From: Bradyrhizobiaceae bacterium PARB1 | GTDB lineage: Bacteria; Pseudomonadota; Alphaproteobacteria; Rhizobiales; Xanthobacteraceae | Assembly (NCBI GenBank): GCA_002256345.1 | Contig: NKIY01000004.1 | Span: 451,876-515,875 of the forward strand | Direction: 5' to 3' | Length of the DNA: 64,000 nt | In this document: piece after piece, positions 34,376 to 45,998 of the stretch | Position numbering within the stretch: position 1 is the stretch's first letter | Layout of the letters: the number at the start of each line of letters is the position of its first letter | Program-made: the position numbers and the translations under genes | Notes under the pieces: generated by a model | The model's input: the letters and a program-made list of their open reading frames with translations, nothing else | The model's database searches: none | Told to the model about the DNA's origin: nothing

Positions 34376-35293
34376 CTAGTTGCCCGTCAGATAGAGCGGC
34401 GTTCTGAATGTGAGTTGATAGGACGGCTGCGGAATCCACTGGATCTGCACCATCACACCGAAAAGACGATTGTCGTTGTCGTCCATGCGGTCGAGGTCGA
34501 GGCGGATAACGGGTTGGGTAAAGGGCTGGATCAGCGTTCTGTTCAGCAGGTCGACGCCGCCGAATGATTGCACGCCGACGCGGGCGGACGCTTTCCAGTT
34601 GTTCGGCCACTGATAGTAGCCGCCGGCATATCCGATCATACTCGGATGGACTTCCGCCGAGGCGCTTTGCACCACGACACGGGTGTCCTGGAAGCCGAAG
34701 AAGAATCCCCTCGTCTGATCCTCATCCAGGGCATAGTCGAATTCGATGACATTGTTGAAATTCGTCGTCGCGAACGGGCCGACCGGCAGCGATTGCGTGA
34801 TGGTCGATTGCACGGTGACGGTGGGGAGCGCGCCGCCGTCTTGTTTGTAGAGATCGGCCTGAAAGCCGACATTCCAGCTCGCGATGTCGATATCCGTCCA
34901 GCCGCCGAGCGGCATCGTGTTGGCGTTTACGGAAACGCCGCCATAGACCGACACCCGATCGTTGAGATCGACGGTCAGCGGGATATCGACCGTGACCGCG
35001 TGCACCGTCGGCAATTTGATATGGGTCGGCACGGTCGATGGCGTGTGGCCGGCCGCAAGGGCGATCGCCCCCAGAACTGAAAACAGCGACGTATTGCCGA
35101 AGCCTATTCCGATCGCACCGCCGGGGGCTGTCGCATAAGTGGTGCGGAGATCCAGATAGACGCTTGGCGCGCTGAATTGAGCCGCTTGATCGGTGTCGTC
35201 CTTGCCGAAGGCAGCATTGGTCACACCCACGCAAACGGTGCAAACCAGAAGCCATCCTTGGATCGGTCGAAGACGCCCGCTGCTCAAAGTCAA
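34376..35293 (-). CDS. putative outer-membrane beta-barrel protein
   Basis: I do not recognise the exact family. I chose the TTG at 35293 (305 aa), which gives a plausible signal peptide (SSGRLRPIQGWLLVCTVCVG in part, cleavage near NAAFG). A GTG at 35335 would overlap the phosphatase gene. The mature chain alternates hydrophobic and polar residues with many aromatic residues and glycines. It resembles an outer-membrane beta-barrel and ends in a strand (LTFRTPLYLTGN). It follows the acid phosphatase on the same strand with 7 bp or less between them, so the two are probably co-translated. Confidence 0.6.
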   Translation of the reverse strand: MTLSSGRLRPIQGWLLVCTVCVGVTNAAFGKDDTDQAAQFSAPSVYLDLRTTYATAPGGAIGIGFGNTSLFSVLGAIALAAGHTPSTVPTHIKLPTVHAVTVDIPLTVDLNDRVSVYGGVSVNANTMPLGGWTDIDIASWNVGFQADLYKQDGGALPTVTVQSTITQSLPVGPFATTNFNNVIEFDYALDEDQTRGFFFGFQDTRVVVQSASAEVHPSMIGYAGGYYQWPNNWKASARVGVQSFGGVDLLNRTLIQPFTQPVIRLDLDRMDDNDNRLFGVMVQIQWIPQPSYQLTFRTPLYLTGN

Positions 35294-35300
35294 GGTCCGC

Positions 35301-36122
35301 TTATTGCGTGGACAAGGCTGTTGTCTCGGCCGCACAAGCCGGCGCAGCGCGCCTCGCCTTCGCTGCCTTCACCTCCAGCTTCGCAGCTTTGAGGTCGGCA
35401 AGGAAGGTCGCGTTGGTCTGCAAGCGCGAAACGGTCGCCGCCCCCATGATGCGGCCCGCATCGACATCGCTCTGCCAGTGCGCATCGCAGATCACGCGGC
35501 TCTGGCCGAAAGCGATGCCGCGCGTGAACAACTCGCTGGAACGCTCTGGATTGATCTGCGCGAAGACGAGGGCCCATCCCCAGCCAGCGGCCGTGTGGCC
35601 CGACGGATAGGAGCCGTCTCCTCGCAGGATCGCTTCCTGATCCGCTCGGCATGTGGCTTCGTTGTGAACGACGAAGGGACGGATGCGGTTGTACTTGTTC
35701 TTCACGCCATAGGTCGACAGGCCAAAGTCGGACAGCATTTTCTGCATCATGGCATAGAGGCGCGGGGTTTGCTCCTTGTCGATCTTGATACCCATCGCGC
35801 AGGAAAAATTATCGGCAGCCTGCGGGAAGGCAAGATCGGCGTCGGTGTAGGCCTGTTTCCAGCGATCGGTACCACGCAGCGGGAGTGTTGCCTTGCGCGC
35901 TTCTTCGTCCCTGGCAAGCGCAGCCGAATCCTTTTCGGGAGGCGGCCCGAGCAGGACCAGACTATCCGGCAGCTCGGACGGCTTCAGATAGCCGGGCGCG
36001 ATCTTGAAATGAGGGTCGGTGACCTTTGGTGGGGCTTCACTTGATTGCGCGAGGGCCTGCCCGCACATCGTGAGCAGCGCGAAGACGGATGCGCCCGCGG
36101 ATCGAACCAGCTTTGCAGTCAT
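35301..36122 (-). CDS. class A nonspecific acid phosphatase (PAP2 superfamily)
   Basis: This is a secreted vanadate-sensitive acid phosphatase of the PhoN type, which hydrolyses phosphomonoesters in the periplasm. The 273-residue precursor has a Sec signal peptide (LTMCGQALAQSSE at the cleavage region). It shows the full class A signature: K-x6-RP in KNKYNRIRP, PSGH in GSYPSGHTAAG, and SR-x5-H-x3-D in SRVICDAHWQSD. AGGGAC precedes the ATG. The 471-bp leader contains an hdeA remnant, an araC remnant and the conserved 20-bp element found in front of two other units of the island. Confidence 0.93.
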   Translation of the reverse strand: MTAKLVRSAGASVFALLTMCGQALAQSSEAPPKVTDPHFKIAPGYLKPSELPDSLVLLGPPPEKDSAALARDEEARKATLPLRGTDRWKQAYTDADLAFPQAADNFSCAMGIKIDKEQTPRLYAMMQKMLSDFGLSTYGVKNKYNRIRPFVVHNEATCRADQEAILRGDGSYPSGHTAAGWGWALVFAQINPERSSELFTRGIAFGQSRVICDAHWQSDVDAGRIMGAATVSRLQTNATFLADLKAAKLEVKAAKARRAAPACAAETTALSTQ

Positions 36123-36226: not shown

Positions 36227-36338
36227 TCAGTGCACGATCACCTGGTGCTCCGCCTCTCGCACGTGCTTGATATTCATCATGTGCTTAGGCGCGAGGCCGT
36301 CGTACCACTCGCTATGCCAAAGGGGGTGCGCATGTCCG
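36227..36338 (-). pseudogene. hdeA-like gene remnant
   Basis: In one minus-strand frame, 36 codons encode PLWHSEWYDGLAPKHMMNIK and then HVREAEHQVIVH. They align with the intact HdeA-like protein of this window (GVWYSGWYNGLGKK, NLPRVREGIHELIVYC). The signal peptide and first half are missing, and a stop stands where the second cysteine should be. It lies directly next to the araC remnant and points the opposite way. Confidence 0.75.
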
Positions 36339-36339
36339 C

Positions 36340-36462
36340 TCGACAAGCGAATCTTATCCGGTCATTTCGTGCAGACGAAGGCCGGTCGTCTTGCCACTTC
36401 GCGCCAATCGCGACCGGTCAAGCCATTTAGCGATCTCTACGTCCCGCTGATGCGTGCTCTAT
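36340..36462 (+). pseudogene. araC upstream block plus 5' coding remnant, copy 1
   Basis: Bases 36340-36425 match the region upstream of the intact araC gene (42990-43075) with few differences, including TTGCCACTTCGCGCCAATCG at 36391-36410. Bases 36429-36452 then match araC codons for SDLYVPLM (43370-43393), as if about 300 bp between had been deleted. The remnant is followed by a stop (TAA at 36461). The block is 230-280 bp upstream of the acid phosphatase gene. Confidence 0.75.
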
Positions 36463-36555
36463 AAACGGCGGCATTGAGTTCTTCGAAATTTGTGAGCCGG
36501 TGTGCCCTGACTGATATGCCCGTCATCAATCCCACCCATCGTTCCTCAGTACATC

Positions 36556-36580
36556 GACAAAGAAGAAGCCAGGAGGCTTC
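36556..36580 (-). terminator. terminator of the outer-membrane transporter gene
   Basis: On the minus strand GAAGCC-TCCT-GGCTTC forms a 6-bp stem followed by TTCTTTG. It lies 14 bases past the stop codon. The stem is short, so efficiency is uncertain. Confidence 0.45.
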
Positions 36581-36593
36581 ACAGGTGAAGGAG

Positions 36594-37601
36594 CTAGAAT
36601 TTGGCTTTTATCGCGCGCCCATCGGCGAGCGCCATGGCATTGGTATCCAACGCGACGGGCACAGACACGGTAAAATATCCGGCGGTGCCTTCCATGCGGT
36701 TCACGGCATCGAATTCACGATAGATTTTCAGGCGTGTTGAAATCGGGAGCTTTCCGACCTCGAACGTGTACCCAATCGAGCCGCCGAGTGCGATGACACG
36801 ACCTTCAAAGGCGCCCAGCCTCGCGCCTGTTCCGGAGTCCGCCGTCAGTTGCTGGTAATAGTAACCGACGAGCCCGAGCGTGAACTCCTTGGTGATGTAT
36901 TTGGTTGCTGCCCATTCGAGGTGGAATTCATCGCCGCTCTTGTAATCGGTCGCCGTGTTGGTCTGGTTAAAGGTGACGCCCACCGCAGCGGAGAGGTCCC
37001 AGCCGATGGCAGGATCTAGCCATGTGAAAGTGCCGAAGACGTCGAGCGCGGTTCTGTTCAACGAGGCGTTCGACAGTTGACCGGCGACATACGTTCCGGA
37101 CGGGATCACACCGCCGACGCCGAGCTGCCAGTGAAAATTGCCCGACTGCCACCCGACAAAGGACTGGAGAAAGAAGTCGCTGAGGTTAGCATTCTTGTCC
37201 GTCACGCCGACACCGATCGGTCCGAAGCGCGGCGAATTCACCAGCAGGTTCGCATTCACGCGCGGCTCACCAACGGGCACCGTCAACGAGAATGCGAGAT
37301 TGCCACCCAGAATCTTGGCAGGTGTAACCCAGAGTGTTGTTGGCAATTCGATCCAGCTCTGGGCCGAGACGTCTGCAACTAGAAGACCACCGGTCGGCAG
37401 AGTTCGACCGCCGCTGAGTTTGCCGTCGTAATAATAGAAATCGTTCTGAAAGAAGACGCCGGGCGGCGGCGTAATGCCTGCGCCGGTTGCGTGTGACCCA
37501 AGGAGGAAGACACCTACGCCGCCTTCGGCTGCTATGACTGGCGCTTTTGACCAGCATAACATGGCGCTGGCAGCGACCGCCATCGTCAAAGAAAAGCGCA
37601 T
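36594..37601 (-). CDS. outer-membrane protein of the MetA-pathway/phenol-degradation type
   Basis: This is a predicted outer-membrane channel of the family often labelled putative MetA-pathway of phenol degradation (SphA-like). I chose the ATG at 37601 (335 aa), with CGGAG upstream. The precursor has a signal peptide (MRFSLTMAVAASAMLCWS in part). The barrel contains the family's ALDVFGTFTWLDPAIGWDLSAAVGVTFN (in part), HLEWAATKYITKEFTLGLVGYYYQQLT (in part) and a C-terminal strand ending in phenylalanine. Members are thought to move hydrophobic or aromatic compounds; the substrate here is unknown. It belongs to the sulfatase island, 215 bp after the glycine-zipper gene. Confidence 0.8.
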   Translation of the reverse strand: MRFSLTMAVAASAMLCWSKAPVIAAEGGVGVFLLGSHATGAGITPPPGVFFQNDFYYYDGKLSGGRTLPTGGLLVADVSAQSWIELPTTLWVTPAKILGGNLAFSLTVPVGEPRVNANLLVNSPRFGPIGVGVTDKNANLSDFFLQSFVGWQSGNFHWQLGVGGVIPSGTYVAGQLSNASLNRTALDVFGTFTWLDPAIGWDLSAAVGVTFNQTNTATDYKSGDEFHLEWAATKYITKEFTLGLVGYYYQQLTADSGTGARLGAFEGRVIALGGSIGYTFEVGKLPISTRLKIYREFDAVNRMEGTAGYFTVSVPVALDTNAMALADGRAIKAKF

Positions 37602-37684
37602 CAACAAACTCCGCTTGGAAAAACAGCACAAATCGCAACAGGATCAACATAAGCGCAAATCGATATTCTGAGGCAGGATGCGTC

Positions 37685-37716
37685 AAAAAAGCTAAAGCAC
37701 GTTCCGATGGGAACGC
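37685..37716 (-). terminator. possible terminator after the glycine-zipper gene
   Basis: GCGTTCC-CATC-GGAACGTGC is a stem-loop on the minus strand followed by TTTAGCTTTTTT. It lies 100 bases past the glycine-zipper stop. The T-tract is separated from the stem by several bases, so the call is tentative. Confidence 0.4.
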
Positions 37717-37816
37717 GGCCCAGCTTCTTCAGTCACATTGAGAACACCGCAGCAGTCACTGTTCGACGTGGATCGATAACAACGACCTGCTGAAATAGTC
37801 CTCGGTCAGAGTGCGA

Positions 37817-38140
37817 TCAGTAGCACCGGCTATAGATTCGGCCGTAAGCATCGACCGCCTGAACGCAAGCGGGTGGTGCGGCGACGACGGCCGCACCCGC
37901 GACTGCTCCGCCCACGATGGCTCCTCCCACGATGGCCCCACCCACGACGGCCCGGCGCGTCGTTCGCCTTGCGACGCCGGCGTAACTCAGGGGTGTAAGC
38001 GGAGCTCCGATGAGGGCCTCAGCCGAGGTCATGAAGGTACCGCCACGCGTGAACGATGCCTGTTCGCTGACCGAGAGACACAGGATGGCCACGCTCGTTC
38101 CGAGGGCGATTTTCAATAGCTTGCTTTTCAATCCCGTCAT
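37817..38140 (-). CDS. small glycine-zipper envelope protein
   Basis: This 107-residue exported protein has an N-terminal hydrophobic segment (ALGTSVAILCLSVS). Its centre contains the glycine-zipper run VVGGAIVGGAIVGGAVAGAA (about residues 65-84), a pattern of membrane-inserting or oligomerising helices. Two cysteines near the C-terminus (PACVQAVDAYGRIYSRCY) could form a disulfide. The start overlaps the DUF2092 stop in an ATGA arrangement, so the two are translationally coupled. Function is unknown. Confidence 0.7.
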   Translation of the reverse strand: MTGLKSKLLKIALGTSVAILCLSVSEQASFTRGGTFMTSAEALIGAPLTPLSYAGVARRTTRRAVVGGAIVGGAIVGGAVAGAAVVAAPPACVQAVDAYGRIYSRCY

Positions 38141-38958
38141 TTCTTCTCTCCACTGAGGCTGATTCCCGGGGGAATCTCATCGATATGGCCGAGATCCTGA
38201 AGCTCACGCTTCTTCATGTCTGCGCCCGGCTTGAACGCGAATGCATCGGCACTGGTGTCGGCGCTCGTTTTCCAGTTGCTAATTCGGAGCGTGTATTGAG
38301 GCGCGCCCGTCACCGCTTTGGACGTGATGATGTATTTGCGCGGAATCGGCGTCGCACCGGGCTCTATCCAGATCTGCCAGTCGGCATCCGGCGTGCGAAA
38401 CGCCAGGTGTTCACACTCACGGCCATCGATGACACCCCTGCCGATATGCTTGGCGTCATAGACTCCATCCATCAGGGCTGCATAGGAATTGGCGAGAAGA
38501 AGATCGGCGCCCGGCGCCTCGATGCCGGACTTGTCGCGAAGGCGGTCGACGAGCTGGTCGATCGTGCCGGGGGCTGGCATCTGCCCGTAGGTTTTGCGGG
38601 CACGATCGGAAACGGTGAAATTGGCGCCATCGTATACGAGCTCGACGTCGGCGTAGCCGCCGGTCCGTGTCACGCGGAGTTTGTCTGGCCGATGGAGGGT
38701 GAGTTGCCCGGAACTGGCAAACTGAACCTTCTGCATGTCCGGGGTCATGATCTCGATGTCGGAATCATACGATATCGAAACATTCTTTTGACCCGCGATG
38801 TAATCGGACATCGCGCGCAGGATAGACGCAGCATCATCCGCGCGGGCGGCGCCAGCTCCGATGCATGTTGCAGATAAACCCGACGCGATCAGGAGCGCGG
38901 CAACAGAGCGGATCGACCGGCGCGCCGCATTCAAGGGCGTTCTGGATTGGCTTTTCAA
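38137..38958 (-). CDS. DUF2092 family periplasmic protein
   Basis: The 273-residue precursor has a Sec signal (VAALLIASGLSATCIGAG in part, cleavage near AARADD). The mature part matches the DUF2092 family. Characteristic segments are MSDYIAGQKNVSISYDSDIEI (in part), LHRPDKLRVTRTGGYADVELVYDG (in part) and DADWQIWIEPGATPIPRKYIITSK (in part). The fold is expected to resemble LolA/LolB, which bind lipid or lipoprotein acyl chains, but no role is established. It lies 64 bp downstream of the HdeA-like gene and is coupled to the glycine-zipper gene. Confidence 0.82.
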   Translation of the reverse strand: MKSQSRTPLNAARRSIRSVAALLIASGLSATCIGAGAARADDAASILRAMSDYIAGQKNVSISYDSDIEIMTPDMQKVQFASSGQLTLHRPDKLRVTRTGGYADVELVYDGANFTVSDRARKTYGQMPAPGTIDQLVDRLRDKSGIEAPGADLLLANSYAALMDGVYDAKHIGRGVIDGRECEHLAFRTPDADWQIWIEPGATPIPRKYIITSKAVTGAPQYTLRISNWKTSADTSADAFAFKPGADMKKRELQDLGHIDEIPPGISLSGEKK

Positions 38959-39022
38959 GAGATAATTCCTGTTACTTGTTCGTTAGCTGGGCCGGCAAGT
39001 CAGAATGATGTTGCACCAACAT

Positions 39023-39370
39023 TCATTTAGCTGTGCGGACCTTTTCAGCCTTCAGAAGAACGTCGATGGCCTTGATGATGGTCGTGCCTTGATTGGCCTT
39101 GCAGTAGACGATCAGTTCGTGAATGCCTTCTCGAACTCTGGGCAAGTTGATGGACGACTTCTTTCCGAGGCCATTGTACCAACCGCTGTACCAAACGCCG
39201 AGAAAGTTGGCGTCTTCCTGATACGTTCCGGCAAGTTGCGCGCAGGTCAGCTTCTGCACATTGATGTAACCATCCGCATCGGCATAGGCCTTCAATTCGG
39301 TTTGGGCTTGAGCCGAGCCCAGCGGTGCTGCGCACGCAACAGCAAGAACAAAAGCAAGTTGCTTCATCAT
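39023..39370 (-). CDS. HdeA/HdeB-like periplasmic protein
   Basis: Members of this family are small periplasmic chaperones that protect proteins at low pH. The ATG at 39370 has AAAGGA upstream and gives 115 residues. A Sec signal peptide (LAFVLAVACAAPLGSAQAQ) is cleaved near residue 23. The mature domain has Cys43 (LTCAQLAG) and Cys90 (LIVYCKANQ), spaced as for the family's disulfide, and the motif WYSGWYNGL. It lies between the sulfatase gene (129 bp gap) and DUF2092. A degraded second copy lies at 36227. Confidence 0.82.
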   Translation of the reverse strand: MMKQLAFVLAVACAAPLGSAQAQTELKAYADADGYINVQKLTCAQLAGTYQEDANFLGVWYSGWYNGLGKKSSINLPRVREGIHELIVYCKANQGTTIIKAIDVLLKAEKVRTAK

Positions 39371-39499
39371 TGAACATTCCTTTGGTGATTCAGCAGGCGT
39401 TATCTGCTGGGGTCGTGAAGTTCGTTTTCGATCAGGGACAGCGAACACTTTCGATCTCCGTTTCCAGCCGATGAGTACGCGACGTGGTCAAACGACCAC

Positions 39500-41884
39500 T
39501 CAGTTCAGATACTCAACCCGGAGACGACTAATCTTTCCGTTGAACGCGAATGGCTTGCGGTCGTAATACGCGAACGAGACCGGCGAATAGCTGTCACGGC
39601 CGACGTCAAACGCGTCATTGGCAGTGAACCCAAGCGAGGTTGAGCGAGGCACCCGGCCCTTGGCGACTTCCTTGCCGTCCACGCGGATGACAATGTTGAG
39701 AGGAGCGGCGTGCAGGTTGCCGGACATGCGTGTTTCGACTTCGATCTTGACCCTGCCGGTCGGCAGCGGAGCGGTCGTGTCGAGCCTTGTCCGTTCGATC
39801 TCGAACAGGTTGTACTCAAAACTGAGCTTACCGTCCTCGACCCACAGCGAAATGCCTCCCGAGATCGCGCCCAGGGCGTAAAGCACACCCTTCGAGTCCG
39901 GCTTCAGTTCTGCGTCGATGCTGACAAGACTGCTTCGTGAGCCGAGCTTCGGTGCGGTGAATTCCGGAACGGCAACGACGTTCTGCGTGTAGTCGAACAC
40001 CTTGGCTGGATTGGATGGCGCGTCTTCGGGATGGAAGACAACGGACCACAGGCCGCCGCCGACGGGATAGACCTTGTTGGCCTTCGCGTTCGTATCGAAC
40101 GTCTTCTTCATCTCGTCGACTTTTTTGGAATTGGCAGACGCGATATCCTTCGCCTGCGAAAAGTCCTTCCGGAGATCGTAGAGTTCCCACGCGTCGTTCT
40201 CAGGCGTCCATTTTGCGATCGCCGGATCGACACCTGCCCGCCAGGGGATGCGCGGTCCGAACACGGACGCTATCCACTCGTCCCTATAGATCGCGCGGCT
40301 GCCCATCACCTCGAAGTACTGTTCCTTCTTTTGTCCCGGCGCGGTTGGCGCCCCGAAGGAGTAGACCATGCTGATGCCGTCAAGCGGATCCTGTGTGACG
40401 CCGTCGACAAGCTTTGGCGGCTTGATTTTCAGGATGTCGTAGATCGTCGGCACGATATCGTTGACATGATGAAACTGCGGATGCGGTGTCTTGTTCGGCT
40501 TGATCCTGGTCGGCCAGGACACCGCCATCGGCGTGCGCGTCCCGCCGAAATGCGCCGCGATCAGCTTTGTGGATTGATATGGCGTAGAGCCCGCCCACGC
40601 CCAGCCGGCATGGTACATGTTGTCGACCTTGGGCGATCCGAGCACATCCAGGCCACCCAACTCCTTCAGGGAGCGGAGATGATCCTTGATCTCGGTCGCA
40701 ATGCCATTCTGCGCCAGAAGTTCGCTGATGGTGCCGTTCTGACCTTCCGCGCTCGAGCCATTGTCACCCCAGACGTAGAAGATAAGTGTGTTGTCGCGAA
40801 TGCCGAGTTCGTCGAGCGTATCGATCAGCCGGCCGGCCTGGACGTCCGCATGCTCGGTGTATCCGGCGAACACTTCCATGAGTCGACGCTGGAATGGCTT
40901 TTCCTCCTCGGGGATATCGGCCCATGCGGCAAGCGTTTTCGGCCGCGGCGTCAGCTCGGTGTCTTTCGGAATCCATCCGAGTTCTTTCTGGCGGGCGAAG
41001 ACGCGCTCGCGCATGACATCCCAGCCGTCGTCAAACTTGCCCTTATATTTGTCCGCCCAGTCCTTGAAAATGTGATGCGGACCATGGGAGGCGCCGGGGG
41101 TCCAATACATGAAGAACGGGCGATCCGGTGTCAGCGCACGGACCTGCTTGATCCATGAGACAGCCTTGTCGGTCATGTCCTCGGTGAAGTGATATTCTTT
41201 CTTGCCCTCGGAAGGATCCAGGCGAACCGTGTTTTCGACGACCGCGGGCTCCCACTGCGAGGATTCCCCGGCAAGGAAACCGTAGAAGTAGTCGAAACCG
41301 ATGCCCTGCCCCGCTGGCCAGTTCGTATAGGGACCGACGGCTGTGGTCTCGTTCGCCGGCGTGTTGTGCCATTTCCCGAAAGCACCCGTCGCATAGCCAT
41401 AATAGCCAAGCACTTTCGCCGCCGTCGCGGATGTGCGCGGGATATGACCGGAGTAGCCATCCCAATCATTTGCCAGTTCTGCGATCTGGCCAAACCCGAC
41501 ACGGTGATGATTGCGTCCGGTCAGCAACGCTGCTCGCGTTGGGGAGCACATCGCCGCATTGTGGAAGCGATTGTACGACACGCCGCCTTCGGCAACCCGG
41601 CTCAGCGTGTCTGTCTTGATCACGCCACCATAGGTGCTGGGGAGCGCCGGACCAACGTCATCGAGCATGATGACGACGATGTTCGGTGCATTGGCCGGAA
41701 GGTGCGATTTCGCCGGCGTCGGGTTGTAGGTCGACCGAGCGATTGTCGGACCAGCCTTGCTCCCTGACGGCGTTGGCGGGAACGGCAGCGATTCCTGGGC
41801 AACCGCAGGCGTTCCCAACAACAGGAGCGACGTGCTCATACCCATCCAGCGTGCTCTGAGATGACTATTAAGCGGCTTTTTCAT
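39500..41884 (-). CDS. arylsulfatase (type I, formylglycine-dependent)
   Basis: This is a periplasmic sulfatase that hydrolyses sulfate esters after conversion of an active-site cysteine to formylglycine. I chose the ATG at 41884 (794 aa), with GGAGAGA 6 bases upstream and a Sec signal peptide (MGMSTSLLLLGTPAVAQ). The consensus C-x-P-x-R is present as Cys113 in MCSPTRAALLTGRN. The calcium-binding aspartates are in IMLDDVG (Asp75/76), and WGDNGSSAEG provides the second metal site. A C-terminal beta-sandwich extends from about residue 560. The reading frame overlaps the end of the FGE gene by 17 bases, so enzyme and activator are made together. The natural substrate is unknown. Confidence 0.93.
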   Translation of the reverse strand: MKKPLNSHLRARWMGMSTSLLLLGTPAVAQESLPFPPTPSGSKAGPTIARSTYNPTPAKSHLPANAPNIVVIMLDDVGPALPSTYGGVIKTDTLSRVAEGGVSYNRFHNAAMCSPTRAALLTGRNHHRVGFGQIAELANDWDGYSGHIPRTSATAAKVLGYYGYATGAFGKWHNTPANETTAVGPYTNWPAGQGIGFDYFYGFLAGESSQWEPAVVENTVRLDPSEGKKEYHFTEDMTDKAVSWIKQVRALTPDRPFFMYWTPGASHGPHHIFKDWADKYKGKFDDGWDVMRERVFARQKELGWIPKDTELTPRPKTLAAWADIPEEEKPFQRRLMEVFAGYTEHADVQAGRLIDTLDELGIRDNTLIFYVWGDNGSSAEGQNGTISELLAQNGIATEIKDHLRSLKELGGLDVLGSPKVDNMYHAGWAWAGSTPYQSTKLIAAHFGGTRTPMAVSWPTRIKPNKTPHPQFHHVNDIVPTIYDILKIKPPKLVDGVTQDPLDGISMVYSFGAPTAPGQKKEQYFEVMGSRAIYRDEWIASVFGPRIPWRAGVDPAIAKWTPENDAWELYDLRKDFSQAKDIASANSKKVDEMKKTFDTNAKANKVYPVGGGLWSVVFHPEDAPSNPAKVFDYTQNVVAVPEFTAPKLGSRSSLVSIDAELKPDSKGVLYALGAISGGISLWVEDGKLSFEYNLFEIERTRLDTTAPLPTGRVKIEVETRMSGNLHAAPLNIVIRVDGKEVAKGRVPRSTSLGFTANDAFDVGRDSYSPVSFAYYDRKPFAFNGKISRLRVEYLN

Positions 41885-42863
41885 TCGTCTCTCCGTTTCG
41901 AATAACGCATCTGAACCCGACATGACTTGTCGAAGTATCGATCGCTTCCGGATGGCGGGCTGCGGGCCGATAGCGGCGGCAATAATTCGGGGCACACAAA
42001 TGCGAGCCGCCTTTGAGGACCTTCCGCGGTATTCTTATTTGAGGCAGACATGGATCGTAGCTGGCAGCCTCACGCCCGCCGCGAGGATTCCTGGGCACGC
42101 AGCAGGCCTTCGTGGTGTCTGCTTCGTGCTGCGCGGAGTACCAGTCGGATGTCCATTCCCAGACATTTCCGATCATGTCGTAGAGACCGTATCCGTTCGG
42201 CGGAAAAGCCTTCACAGGCGACGTGCGGGCGTATCCGTCCTGGTTACGATTGACCGTCGGAAACGATCCTTGCCAGGTATTCGCCATATGTCGGCCAGCA
42301 GGGGTTAATTCCGATCCCCAGGCGAATTCGGCCTGTTCGAGGCCTCCTCTGGCGGCGAACTCCCACTCGGCTTCGGTAGGAAGATCCCTGCCCTTCCATC
42401 GTGCATAGGCCAGCGCGTCGTGGTGGGTAACGTGGACGACGGGATGATCAGCGCATCCATCGATGCTGCTAACCGGACCATAGGGGTGGCGCCAGTTGGC
42501 ACCCTCGAGAAACGACCACCACCGCGACCAGTCATCAAGACCGACACGCCCGGTCGGCTCGCGAAAAACCAGCGAGCCCGCATACAACATCTCCGGCAAT
42601 ATGCCAGGATAGTCTTTTGGATCGGGCGCGGATTCGGCAACCGTGCGATATCCGGTTGCAGCCACGAACTCGGCAAACTGAATATTGCTGACGGGAGTTT
42701 CGTCAATGAAGAACCCATCGACACTGACGCGGTGAGCCGGTTTCTCTTCGGGGTAGTGCCGATCCGAACCCATCCAGAACGTTCCGGCACTCACGAAGAT
42801 CATGCCATCTCGCATACGCTCCAGATCCGTCTGAGCCGTTTCGGCGCAGGTCAGTGTTTTCAA
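41868..42863 (-). CDS. formylglycine-generating enzyme (sulfatase-modifying factor)
   Basis: This copper-dependent oxidase converts the sulfatase active-site cysteine to formylglycine. The 331-residue protein has the FGE-sulfatase fold: FVSAGTFWMGSD, VSVDGFFIDETPVSNIQFAEFV (in part), LPTEAEWEFAARGG, NVWEWTSDWY. Both catalytic cysteines are in GGSHLCAPNYCRRYRPAAR as Cys290 and Cys295. It has no signal peptide, so modification would precede export. It is the first gene of the minus-strand operon and is divergent from araC across a 380-bp region carrying the conserved regulatory block. Confidence 0.94.
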   Translation of the reverse strand: MKTLTCAETAQTDLERMRDGMIFVSAGTFWMGSDRHYPEEKPAHRVSVDGFFIDETPVSNIQFAEFVAATGYRTVAESAPDPKDYPGILPEMLYAGSLVFREPTGRVGLDDWSRWWSFLEGANWRHPYGPVSSIDGCADHPVVHVTHHDALAYARWKGRDLPTEAEWEFAARGGLEQAEFAWGSELTPAGRHMANTWQGSFPTVNRNQDGYARTSPVKAFPPNGYGLYDMIGNVWEWTSDWYSAQHEADTTKACCVPRNPRGGREAASYDPCLPQIRIPRKVLKGGSHLCAPNYCRRYRPAARHPEAIDTSTSHVGFRCVIRNGETNEKAA

Positions 42864-43243
42864 TATGGTGTTTCCAGTTTACTTGTCGGGTTCGTTGGGA
42901 AGGCGGAAGCAAAGCCGGGCCGGTGCCGACGTTTCGTGGGGCGGATTCTTCGGGGAAGCCGACGCGAGCGCCCAGCCGGTTGTCTTCCGATCGACAGGCG
43001 AACCCTGTCCGGATCATTTCGTGCAGCCGAGGGTCAACCGTCTTGCCACTTCGCGCCAATCGCTGCCGGCCATGTCATTTGCAGATGAGTTCTTGCCGCA
43101 ATGCACACGACGCGGCGACCGCAGCAATTCGACACCGACAGCTCCCGGCAACAGAACGGTGGTAGTCTCCAGGCTCGCCAGCAGCGATTCCTATGAAATT
43201 GTGGCTGATGACGAGTGCCGACTGATGATCGCGACGAGACCTA
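42864..43243. promoter_or_regulatory. FGE-araC divergent control region with conserved block, copy 2
   Basis: This gene-free 380 bp separates the FGE-sulfatase operon from araC. Bases 42990-43080 are the parent of the blocks seen at 36340 and 45452. The strictest part is TTGCCACTTCGCGCCAATCG (43043-43062), about 180 bp from each start codon. It is a candidate AraC binding site serving both directions. The rest shows nothing I can name. Confidence 0.55.
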
Positions 43244-44245
43244 ATGGCCAACATTCCTTTGACGCGCTGCCAGTTTCTTCTGCCTTTTGTCGGGATACTC
43301 GATGACACCGGTGCGCCGACGAGTTCGCTTCTGGCCAGGTTTCGGCTTCCGTCGTCGCTGATCGACAAGAGCGATCTCTACGTCCCGCTGATGCCGGCAA
43401 TCCGCTTCATGGAAACCGCCCGAAGAAGCCAGGGCATTGAGGAATTCGGCTTCCTGGCCAGCCAGCGGCTGCATTACTCCCATATGCGCGAGAAAACCCG
43501 GGCGCTGATCGCGCAAGCGCCGACATTGCTCGTCGCGCTGCGGCACGCCTGCACGTGGGCGCCGCGGGAAGATACGATCCTGAGCATGTGGATCGAGCAT
43601 GATGACGATCACGCGCGGATTTGCACCACGCTCGCCGGGACAAACGGGCTCCTGCATATGGAGCACCTGCAATGGATCCAGAACATCTTCTCCATACACA
43701 TCGTCCGGCAATTCGCAGGGCCGGACTGGATGCCGGCGACGATCGCCTTTGAAGCGCGCTACACGCCGCGTCCGGCCACGCAAGCCTTGTGGCCCAATGT
43801 GCGCTTCCTGTCAGGCCAACATGCCGCGTGGATCGACGTGCCGATCTCGTATCTCAGTCTCACCAACCGCCGGAAAGATGTGAGCTTTACGCCGCAAGCT
43901 CACGAAGATGGCCCGTCCGGCTATGACATCGTTGAGCTGCTGAAGCTGATGCTGCCGTCCTATCTGGACGACGGAATTCCGGCTCTTGCCGACGTCGCTG
44001 AAATGGCGGGCGTCAGCACACGCAGCTTTCAGCGCAAGCTCGCACATGTCGGTCTGAGCTATTCAGATCTGCTCGATACCGTCAGATACGAGAATGCGAG
44101 CAAGCTTCTGCGCGAAACGGATTCCAGGATTATCGATATCGCATTTTCGTCCGGCTACACGGATCCGGCACACTTCAGTCGCGCCTTCCGCCGAATTGCC
44201 GGCGTGACGCCGCGGCAGTTTCGCGAGCAATCGCGACCGGGATAA
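43244..44245 (+). CDS. AraC-family transcriptional regulator
   Basis: This 333-residue activator-type regulator has an N-terminal ligand-binding region of the arabinose-binding-like type (about 1-200; YSHMREKTRALIAQAPTLLVAL in part). A C-terminal AraC double helix-turn-helix spans about 235-330 (IPALADVAEMAGVSTRSFQRKL in part; IIDIAFSSGYTDPAHFSRAFRRIAG in part, then TPRQFR). It is divergent from the FGE-sulfatase operon. Two truncated copies of its 5' region lie in front of the acid phosphatase and DUF1254 genes, so it is the likely regulator of all three units. The inducer is unknown. Confidence 0.92.
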   Translation: MANIPLTRCQFLLPFVGILDDTGAPTSSLLARFRLPSSLIDKSDLYVPLMPAIRFMETARRSQGIEEFGFLASQRLHYSHMREKTRALIAQAPTLLVALRHACTWAPREDTILSMWIEHDDDHARICTTLAGTNGLLHMEHLQWIQNIFSIHIVRQFAGPDWMPATIAFEARYTPRPATQALWPNVRFLSGQHAAWIDVPISYLSLTNRRKDVSFTPQAHEDGPSGYDIVELLKLMLPSYLDDGIPALADVAEMAGVSTRSFQRKLAHVGLSYSDLLDTVRYENASKLLRETDSRIIDIAFSSGYTDPAHFSRAFRRIAGVTPRQFREQSRPG

Positions 44246-44351
44246 ACGCGCTTGCCCCTTTGCACATTTCTGCGCGGCCTCAGACACGCCAGTTGGCCTG
44301 CCTGAGAGTAGCGGCGGGGGACTTGGATGCACTAGTCCTTCGGCTTGAGGC

Positions 44352-45401
44352 TCAGTTTAGAGGCTTCGCCTCCGGAAGCTTCCACTTGCCGCTGGCAAGG
44401 GGTTGCTCCGGCCGATAAAGCCGGACGGTGTAATTCCAGCCTTCAACGATCGGCAGACAGTTCGGGATCTTGCCGTCACAGCCGCCGAACTGGACGGTCA
44501 CCGAACCGTCCGCATTCTTCTTCGCGGTGATATCGTTGATCGAATAGGCATTGTATTCGTTTTTCTCGAAGAAGCCCTTCGCGTTGTACACGCTGACCGA
44601 CCAGAAAGCCTTCACCGGCACAGTCTTCGGCATATTGAAGGTGTAGACTGTCTTGCCGTCGTTCTTTGCGGGCGTGAAGCTTACATAGATGGCGTCCTTG
44701 TCCGGAATGCCGCCCCACCCGGCAGCCGTGCCAATCAGGTGCTGGATCGGATCGACCTGGCCGCGGGCGCCAAAGGAGCCGCGAAACGACGTCTGGAACT
44801 TTGCTAGTCCGAGCAACGCATTGCGGACGTCCGTCAGGCTCCCTTCATCCCAGTTTGGGAGATCGAGCTTGCCCGTTTCCTTCTGGCTGACCCTGATGGC
44901 GTCCTGCAGCTTGTGAACCTCGTCGAGATCTTTCGGATCGTTGGGATCGACCAGCGTCCGGACAGCGACGAAGGCATATCGGGTGCCAACGGATTTCTGC
45001 GTCAACGTAACCGGCTTCTTGCCATAGGCGACGATTGGCAGATAGTGATCCTGATCGACCACCATCATCGACATATAGCGCTTGCCCGTATCAGGCATCG
45101 AGAGCGTGACCGGCCCGCCGGCAAGATCAAACACCGCAAACGAATAAAGCGTATCCCGGTTCATACGGATGACCGTTTGCTTATCGATGGATACGGGCTC
45201 CCGTGAGTGCTGAAACTTGCCCAGCCCGCCTACGGTCTTTGCATTCGCCGCGAGGTAATGGTCGGTCTCAGCGCGGGCGAAATTGCCAACGGTGACCGGC
45301 ATTTTGCCGGCTGGTGCCTGGGCAAATGCTCCGCCGGTCAATGCGACCGAAGCAAATGCGAGACTGATCCCAACCGAACGGAACATGAGGTACCTCTTCA
45401 T
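44352..45401 (-). CDS. DUF1254/DUF1214 family periplasmic protein
   Basis: The 349-residue precursor has a Sec signal peptide (GISLAFASVALTGGAFAQ). An N-terminal DUF1254 region follows (FARAETDHYLAANAK; IRMNRDTLYSFAVFDL; YMSMMVVDQDHYLPIV in part). The C-terminal DUF1214 region has AFWSVSVYNAKGFFEKNEYNAYSINDIT (in part) and NWNYTVRLYRP-type strands. No enzymatic role is established for the family. The gene stands alone behind araC, and its promoter region holds the third copy of the conserved block about 100 bp upstream. Confidence 0.88.
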   Translation of the reverse strand: MKRYLMFRSVGISLAFASVALTGGAFAQAPAGKMPVTVGNFARAETDHYLAANAKTVGGLGKFQHSREPVSIDKQTVIRMNRDTLYSFAVFDLAGGPVTLSMPDTGKRYMSMMVVDQDHYLPIVAYGKKPVTLTQKSVGTRYAFVAVRTLVDPNDPKDLDEVHKLQDAIRVSQKETGKLDLPNWDEGSLTDVRNALLGLAKFQTSFRGSFGARGQVDPIQHLIGTAAGWGGIPDKDAIYVSFTPAKNDGKTVYTFNMPKTVPVKAFWSVSVYNAKGFFEKNEYNAYSINDITAKKNADGSVTVQFGGCDGKIPNCLPIVEGWNYTVRLYRPEQPLASGKWKLPEAKPLN

Positions 45402-45911
45402 TCAATCTCACCAACAACGCGGGAAGGCGCGGCAGGGAGAAACTCAACGGCAGCCGAATTCTATTCGGATCATGTCGAGCATAGGCGGATCACCGGTCTT
45501 GCCATTTTGCGCCAATCGTTATCGGGCGACCGCATTTCTTCCATTCGCGAGATCAAGGGCTCGGGCTGTGATCGCTCACTCCCCGACACTGATCGTTGCG
45601 CTGAAACACGCCCCTCGGGCGTCACAGGAGGACTGCTGTGAGAAAGCGCGCGGGCCTATCATTACGGAGCGCAGCCTGCGCGGAACGCCGCAGCGACTAT
45701 CTGGCGTATTTTAATCTTGCTGGGATCTGTCGTGCGAGGCGAGAACCGGAAGGCCTGTGCAGCAGCACTCAGCGGTACGAGAAAGTCCGTTTCCAAGCAG
45801 AAGTGCGAGGCACGGGCCCACTGCATTACGCCCCATCGTCACACCATACGGGCCGACGTAACACTCTGATCGGGCTTAACTTCTTGGAATTGCTTCACAT
45901 CAAGAAGTTAG
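45402..45911 (+). pseudogene. gene-free region with araC block and coding remnant, copy 3
   Basis: Bases 45452-45530 match the araC upstream block, with core TTGCCATTTTGCGCCAATCG at 45499-45518 (two transitions from the other copies). Bases 45541-45645 then match araC coding sequence for YSHMREKTRALIAQAPTLLV onward (43473-43595), with substitutions and an internal stop, showing decay after a deletion. A GTG with AGGAGG ahead of it at 45638 is an accident of this remnant. Nothing is recognised from 45650 to tRNA-Leu. Confidence 0.7.

Positions 45912-45998
<87 letters not shown>

Follow-up and report, generated by a model that had tools for sequence, protein, structure and literature searches.

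A conserved core before three envelope and sulfatase units as the predicted operator of a PF12625-type AraC regulator in Tardiphaga

Introduction

Three copies of a short sequence stand before three gene units of a sulfatase island in a Tardiphaga genome. The locus raises the question of whether these copies are operators, as the initial annotation had proposed for a neighboring AraC gene, and what they would control. The window referred to hereafter is the whole stretch of DNA that was analyzed, i.e. 64,000 nucleotides.

Results

The repeated core and its gene units

A pattern search of the window with TTGCCAYTTYGCGCCAATCG recovered the three sites first described at 36391, 43043 and 45499, all on the plus strand, with two variable positions. 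The full 20 bp are shared by copies 1 and 2, and copy 3 deviates at two positions. At up to three mismatches, 0.03 core sites are expected by chance in the window. With this tolerance, the 6.95 Mb Tardiphaga genome contains 3 exact sites and 4 sites at exactly three mismatches, and the reversed pattern, used as a control, matched once. Beyond the three cores, no site with two mismatches or fewer was found genome-wide. The cores and the surrounding gene units are the following:

34376-35335, minus strand: ORF adjoining PAP2, putative outer-membrane protein (the ORF following PAP2 in L147 is 87% identical)
35301-36122, minus strand: PAP2 acid phosphatase, predicted target (Pfam)
36230-36322, minus strand: decayed HdeA-like gene separating copy 1 from PAP2 (45% over 31 aa, E 5e-9)
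36391-36410, plus strand: predicted operator core copy 1, before the PAP2 unit (pattern match)
36594-37631, minus strand: Phenol_MetA_deg outer-membrane protein, possibly the last of the middle unit (Pfam, same strand)
38137-38958, minus strand: DUF2092 protein, putatively of the middle (FGE-sulfatase) unit (Pfam, same strand)
39023-39448, minus strand: HdeA-family protein, putatively of the middle (FGE-sulfatase) unit (Pfam, same strand)
39500-41995, minus strand: sulfatase ORF, predicted target (overlaps the FGE ORF)
41868-42863, minus strand: FGE-sulfatase-domain protein opening the middle unit, predicted target (Pfam)
43043-43062, plus strand: predicted operator core copy 2, between the FGE-sulfatase unit and the intact araC (pattern match)
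44352-45401, minus strand: DUF1254/DUF1214 protein, predicted target of copy 3 (Pfam)
45499-45518, plus strand: predicted operator core copy 3, before the DUF1254 gene (pattern match)

Each core lies 5' of a minus-strand unit, as had been noticed, the first ORFs starting at 36122 (PAP2), 42863 (FGE-sulfatase) and 45401 (DUF1254/DUF1214). The true start of the sulfatase ORF is probably internal. Pfam gave no match for the ORF at 34376-35335, which we infer, like the initial annotation, to encode an outer-membrane protein. Copy 1 is separated from PAP2 by 268 bp with the dead HdeA-like gene in between, and its function is therefore the least certain in this strain. The description of the surroundings as homologous blocks with drifted flanks also holds: over -70..+22, ungapped identity is 54/93 between copies 1 and 2, 48/93 between copies 1 and 3 and 61/93 between copies 2 and 3.

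A tRNA-Leu (CAG) gene is located directly past copy 3 (window 45912-45998); an integration site may adjoin the island. Elsewhere in the genome, one 3-mismatch core (L005, G000:C6:162351-162370) lies directly past an oxidoreductase gene, a close relative of which flanks the DUF1254 unit in L147. Possibly it is an inactive operator left behind when a DUF1254 module disappeared.

Conservation of the core and its flanks

The initial annotation had argued that retention of the core amid a decaying duplicate speaks for function and had called for a comparison of substitutions among relatives. In Tardiphaga the core is far better kept than its flanks: over 13 blocks from five genomes, pairs differ on average by 0.07 within the 17-bp core vs 0.37-0.56 across the four segments that flank it. 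The corresponding values for the five copy-3 orthologues are 0.09 in the core vs 0.43-0.74 in every flanking segment. In both sets, the best-kept 17-bp window among 114 starts at -2. The argument is thus supported with two exceptions, namely the upstream side of copy-2 orthologues, where no contrast is seen (0.06 at -60..-31 vs 0.02 in the core), and the downstream side of copy-1 orthologues from three genomes (0.04 vs 0 in the core).

The regulator and its decayed copies

The AraC gene noticed beside the middle core is intact. According to Pfam, its product, P0001, combines an N-terminal ligand domain (Arabinose_bd PF12625, 35.7 bits vs a cut-off of 27.6) with a C-terminal double helix-turn-helix (HTH) of AraC type (HTH_18 79 bits, HTH_AraC 51 bits, both above cut-off). 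Stretches of similar sequence follow the two other cores:

36429-36453, plus strand: araC remnant past copy 1 (25/25 nt identical to araC)
43244-44245, plus strand: intact AraC-family regulator P0001 (Arabinose_bd PF12625 and HTH_18; Pfam)
45526-45612, plus strand: araC remnant past copy 3 (71% over 87 nt; 13/21 residues in the best translated stretch)

Both remnants are supported by tblastn and similar ones occur in the relatives L145, L146 and L147. They indicate that the island consists of duplicated 'target <- operator -> araC' modules, with araC surviving in a single one. In two of the five copy-3 orthologues (L144 and L147), no araC remnant is detectable past copy 3 and the core is still there; in L147 it lies 37 bp past the end of the neighboring ORF. 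Conservation of the core in araC-less modules suggests a purpose beyond araC expression alone.

Among 19 other AraC-like genes of the same genome, a related site was found at one only. This site, TGGCATTTTGCGCCAA (G000:C31:51356-51371; L007, L032), is located between another PF12625 AraC gene and a gene that we take to be alkB (alkane monooxygenase). In the 17 other genomes of the genus, a search at E 1e-40 recovered no match to the alkB-linked AraC.

Architecture of the site

The monomer site of an AraC protein is made of two boxes about 10 bp apart, one per HTH motif. In AraC-type operators the half-sites are spaced by 21 bp (two turns) and the proximal one overlaps the -35 element; the Pm promoter recognized by XylS contains two half-sites in direct repeat, one strong and one weak, each with two boxes.

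The 35 AraC-adjacent sites yielded the extended consensus GTCTTGCCATTTCGCGCCAATCGC. Information content is 1.86 bits per position in the core vs 0.26 elsewhere. As the sites were aligned on matches with at most two mismatches, the values for the 17 core positions partly reflect this selection. The T and C adjoining the core took no part in this selection and are invariant (35/35 sites). After the core, the next most conserved stretch in these sites is GAgCATTTCGtGCA, 32 bp upstream and in register (0.81 bits). It corresponds to a putative second half-site CATTTCGTGCA in direct repeat, with a mean of 0.81 bits over 17 positions vs 0.26 in the flanks; L126 and L122 have CATTTCGCGCCAA at this place, a clear second copy. 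The counterparts in the window are:

36360-36374, plus strand: putative second half-site belonging to copy 1, GGTCATTTCGTGCAG (in register with the core, which lies 32 bp downstream)
43012-43026, plus strand: putative second half-site of copy 2, GATCATTTCGTGCAG (alignment of sites)
45468-45482, plus strand: putative second half-site of copy 3, GATCATGTCGAGCAT, weaker (alignment of sites)

TTGCCA and GCGCCAA, initially proposed as half-sites, are better described as the two boxes of one predicted AraC monomer site of ~17-20 bp, with a second, weaker site 32 bp away. As in AraC-type operators, two half-sites are found in direct repeat, upstream of the predicted targets and in fixed orientation. 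Their spacing of 32 bp (three turns) differs from the 21 bp (two turns) of E. coli AraC and XylS.

The strongest promoter signal found is a -10-like hexamer toward araC, TATtCT, 11 bp past the core (z 5.3 over 32 sites). No common promoter of the minus-strand units could be placed, the optimum of the -10 scan varying with the group of sites: 24 bp for 32 AraC-adjacent sites, 35 bp for 10 target-only sites and -2 bp for 6 GAAAATTGCC-class sites. The cores of this last class are preceded by GAAAA or GAGAA and form a second type (L122 7040, L123 7053, L124 1132, L125 8230, L126 10431, L131 557). By eye, 5/6 of them have CTATAG or CTATTG at a distance of 20 bp on the facing side, but three of these are near-identical and the -10 scan did not put 20 bp first. 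Pfam gave no match for the four scanned ORFs that face cores of this class.

Position relative to AraC homologues

Fifty-three loci of AraC matches were scanned for a core with at most two mismatches, at most 950 bp upstream and in the same orientation; seven further family-genome matches without locus were left out. Where the homologue is at least 50% identical, the core was found in 38/39 loci, 34 times exactly. The control positions gave 0/39 (upstream opposite), 0/39 (downstream same) and 3/39 (downstream opposite). At 28-39% identity, a core is present upstream in 7/14 loci and in 0/14 for the three control positions. In the genome-contig set, which overlaps with the 53 loci, 35 of the 36 full-length relatives with at least 50% identity have the core (24 exact), the exception being L114. 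Two homologues, L188 (50% identity) and L114 (72%), have no core upstream of araC; both carry a 2-mismatch core on the other side of the gene, which in L114 faces a DUF1254 gene.

The most distant case is gammaproteobacterial. In the genome G769 (L137, L213), a core lies upstream of an AraC gene whose product is 28% identical to P0001, and a second core precedes, by 117 bp, a barrel gene that has distant relatives among the alphaproteobacterial targets. This suggests that the regulon type is older than the classes or was transferred between them. The L213 site is truncated by the contig end. Another match in the gammaproteobacterial genome, L214, stands before a presumably MotB-like gene and was dropped.

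Co-occurrence across genomes

AraC was scored as present at E 1e-30 or better and the core as the exact 17-mer TTGCCAYTTYGCGCCAA. Among 391 family genomes, AraC occurs in 31, the core in 33 and both in 31, i.e. the core is found in 31/31 genomes with AraC vs 2/360 without (Fisher p 6e-44, genomes being treated as independent and kinship ignored). The two exceptions, G170 and G196, have the exact core yet no AraC match at that threshold. The reversed 17-mer matched once in the 391 genomes. Within the genus, 5 of 18 genomes encode the AraC and all five contain the 20-mer at up to two mismatches, vs one of the 13 others (G016). The 2-mismatch sites of G016 and of G012 contig 126 were set aside as probable chance matches: no AraC or island-protein match was found in 19 kb around them.

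Genes facing the core in relatives

Thirty ORFs facing cores in relatives were classified by Pfam or BLAST. They encode DUF1254 proteins (3, plus a weak fourth), PAP2 (3), members of two barrel families, one of 260 aa (8, including one at about 28-32%) and one of 275 aa (5, including a gammaproteobacterial one at 27%), small secreted proteins of a family that ends in YPPCY (4) and HlyD, MscS and CitMHS proteins (one each). Three (L112, L115, L136) gave no usable assignment, the longest ORF being probably in the wrong frame.

Seven of the exact cores lying away from an AraC match in the family genomes were inspected, and the 2.5 kb retrieved for each contains no AraC match. Five of them precede, on the predicted side, families of island genes: FGE in G170 (64% to the FGE of the window), PAP2 in G287, an only distantly related DUF1254 in G086 and DUF2092 in G341 and G369, where the core is directly in front. 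The latter two are near-identical and hence not independent. The G214 core faces, also on the predicted side, a 265-aa outer-membrane barrel known from sister islands, and the G193 core has no clear facing gene. An eighth araC-distant core, in G196, faces an HlyD-type gene, assigned to this family by likeness to the L125 protein.

Discussion

These observations make it very likely that the three cores are operators of the PF12625-type AraC activator encoded at 43244-44245, which would govern an envelope and sulfatase regulon and probably its own gene. The basis is the observed sequence conservation, co-occurrence, position, orientation and araC remnants, from which binding, activation, autorepression and a ligand are inferred. 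Read toward the targets, TTGGCGCGAAATGGCAA would serve as the site of one AraC monomer, its two HTH motifs contacting the boxes TTGGCGC and ATGGCAA, and the weaker site 32 bp nearer to the target would offer a dimer two contacts on the same face. With its ligand, the regulator would most likely activate the minus-strand envelope and sulfatase units, and the core at the araC locus is placed to control, and probably repress, araC. Duplication of the module gave rise to the island, two araC copies then decaying while operators and targets were kept under the one surviving regulator.

Cores that merely persist because the araC promoter region was duplicated along with the genes, copies 1 and 3 having not yet decayed, would explain why araC remnants follow these two copies and why the downstream remnant of copy 1 is well kept (4% differences) in the three genomes having it. 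The copy-3 orthologues nevertheless differ by 9% in the core against 43-74% in flanking segments, L144 and L147 retain the core without araC remnant, and isolated cores of distant genomes precede the same gene families. This possibility is highly improbable and can be regarded as largely refuted. A site that is bound by this AraC but serves mainly its autoregulation, the minus-strand units being under other control, is in keeping with the TATtCT hexamer toward araC 11 bp past the core (z 5.3 over 32 sites); it is unlikely given that cores without araC left or near (copies 1 and 3, isolated cores) persist and face targets.

In principle, another transcription factor could bind the core, with AraC only travelling with the cluster. 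The two family genomes with the core but without this AraC would fit, as would the second PF12625 AraC of the same genome, beside a related site before alkB. But the exact core is present in 31/31 genomes with AraC vs 2/360 without, and the site tracks AraC homologues down to 28% identity, upstream in one orientation, which renders a foreign factor very unlikely. The reading as operators of the PF12625-type activator is retained, and the near letter-for-letter conservation of the core in numerous soil-dwelling relatives sharing the regulator gene means that the genome very probably controls envelope and sulfatase genes as a group.

The nearest experimental parallel among the systems compared is GliR (PA3027) of Pseudomonas aeruginosa. 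It is an AraC-type activator divergent from its target operon, and the PA3026 promoter contains two motifs, one overlapping the -35, both needed for full activation (PMC8151288). By our count, the GliR motif A consensus YYGGCGHTDTYSGMC agrees with TTGGCGCGAAATGGC of the island at 9/15 positions. The targets are glycerolipid genes in the case of GliR, with another half-site sequence and spacing. P0001 resembles GliR in the HTH region at 67 bits, against a cut-off of 570 for the GliR equivalog. The same article describes the araI1/I2 sites of E. coli AraC, as here, as direct-repeat half-sites, strong and weak, with two boxes each (PMC8151288). SlfR from the Psychrobacter plasmid pP62BP1 is an AraC regulator with a domain that the article itself calls Arabinose_bd, encoded beside a sulfatase operon of the opposite strand and proposed as its activator; in contrast to the island's enzyme, the sulfatase there belongs to the metallo-beta-lactamase-like type 3 and has no FGE link, and the accessible sections of the article give no operator (PMC3346939). 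The best named model for P0001 is QhpR (NCBIfam NF049968), covering residues 49-327, nearly the whole length, with 119.3 bits vs an equivalog cut-off of 250, so P0001 is not an orthologue. No QhpR operator was found in the titles and abstracts searched. Searches under QhpR, DUF1254 with AraC, alkB with AraC or motif strings, mostly of titles and abstracts, gave no match for the present operator; neither of two full 17-mers occurred in any paper of the literature searched, and 11-letter pieces, which occurred in 16, were judged by title only. AraC operators as such are already known, and what emerges here is a new, functional-looking and unusually predictive regulon, as judged from sequence.

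We further consider it somewhat probable that a whole subfamily of PF12625 AraC regulators, extending to members of 28% identity and into Gammaproteobacteria, recognizes one near-constant operator, TTGCCATTTYGCGCCAA, and employs it as a movable module. Between species, the envelope, phosphatase, DUF1254, DUF2092 and sulfatase units would be reshuffled and araC copies would die, with the operator staying on the target. If so, the regulon of any member genome would be readable from its sequence. Overall, a predictive operator is proposed for an AraC subfamily without published site in the literature searched, and the island is a clear natural example of operators that persist after their duplicated regulators have decayed. 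DUF1254/DUF1214, DUF2092 and an unnamed barrel would share a regulon with periplasmic phosphatases and sulfatases of the FGE type, a grouping that should aid the search for the ligand and the shared function.
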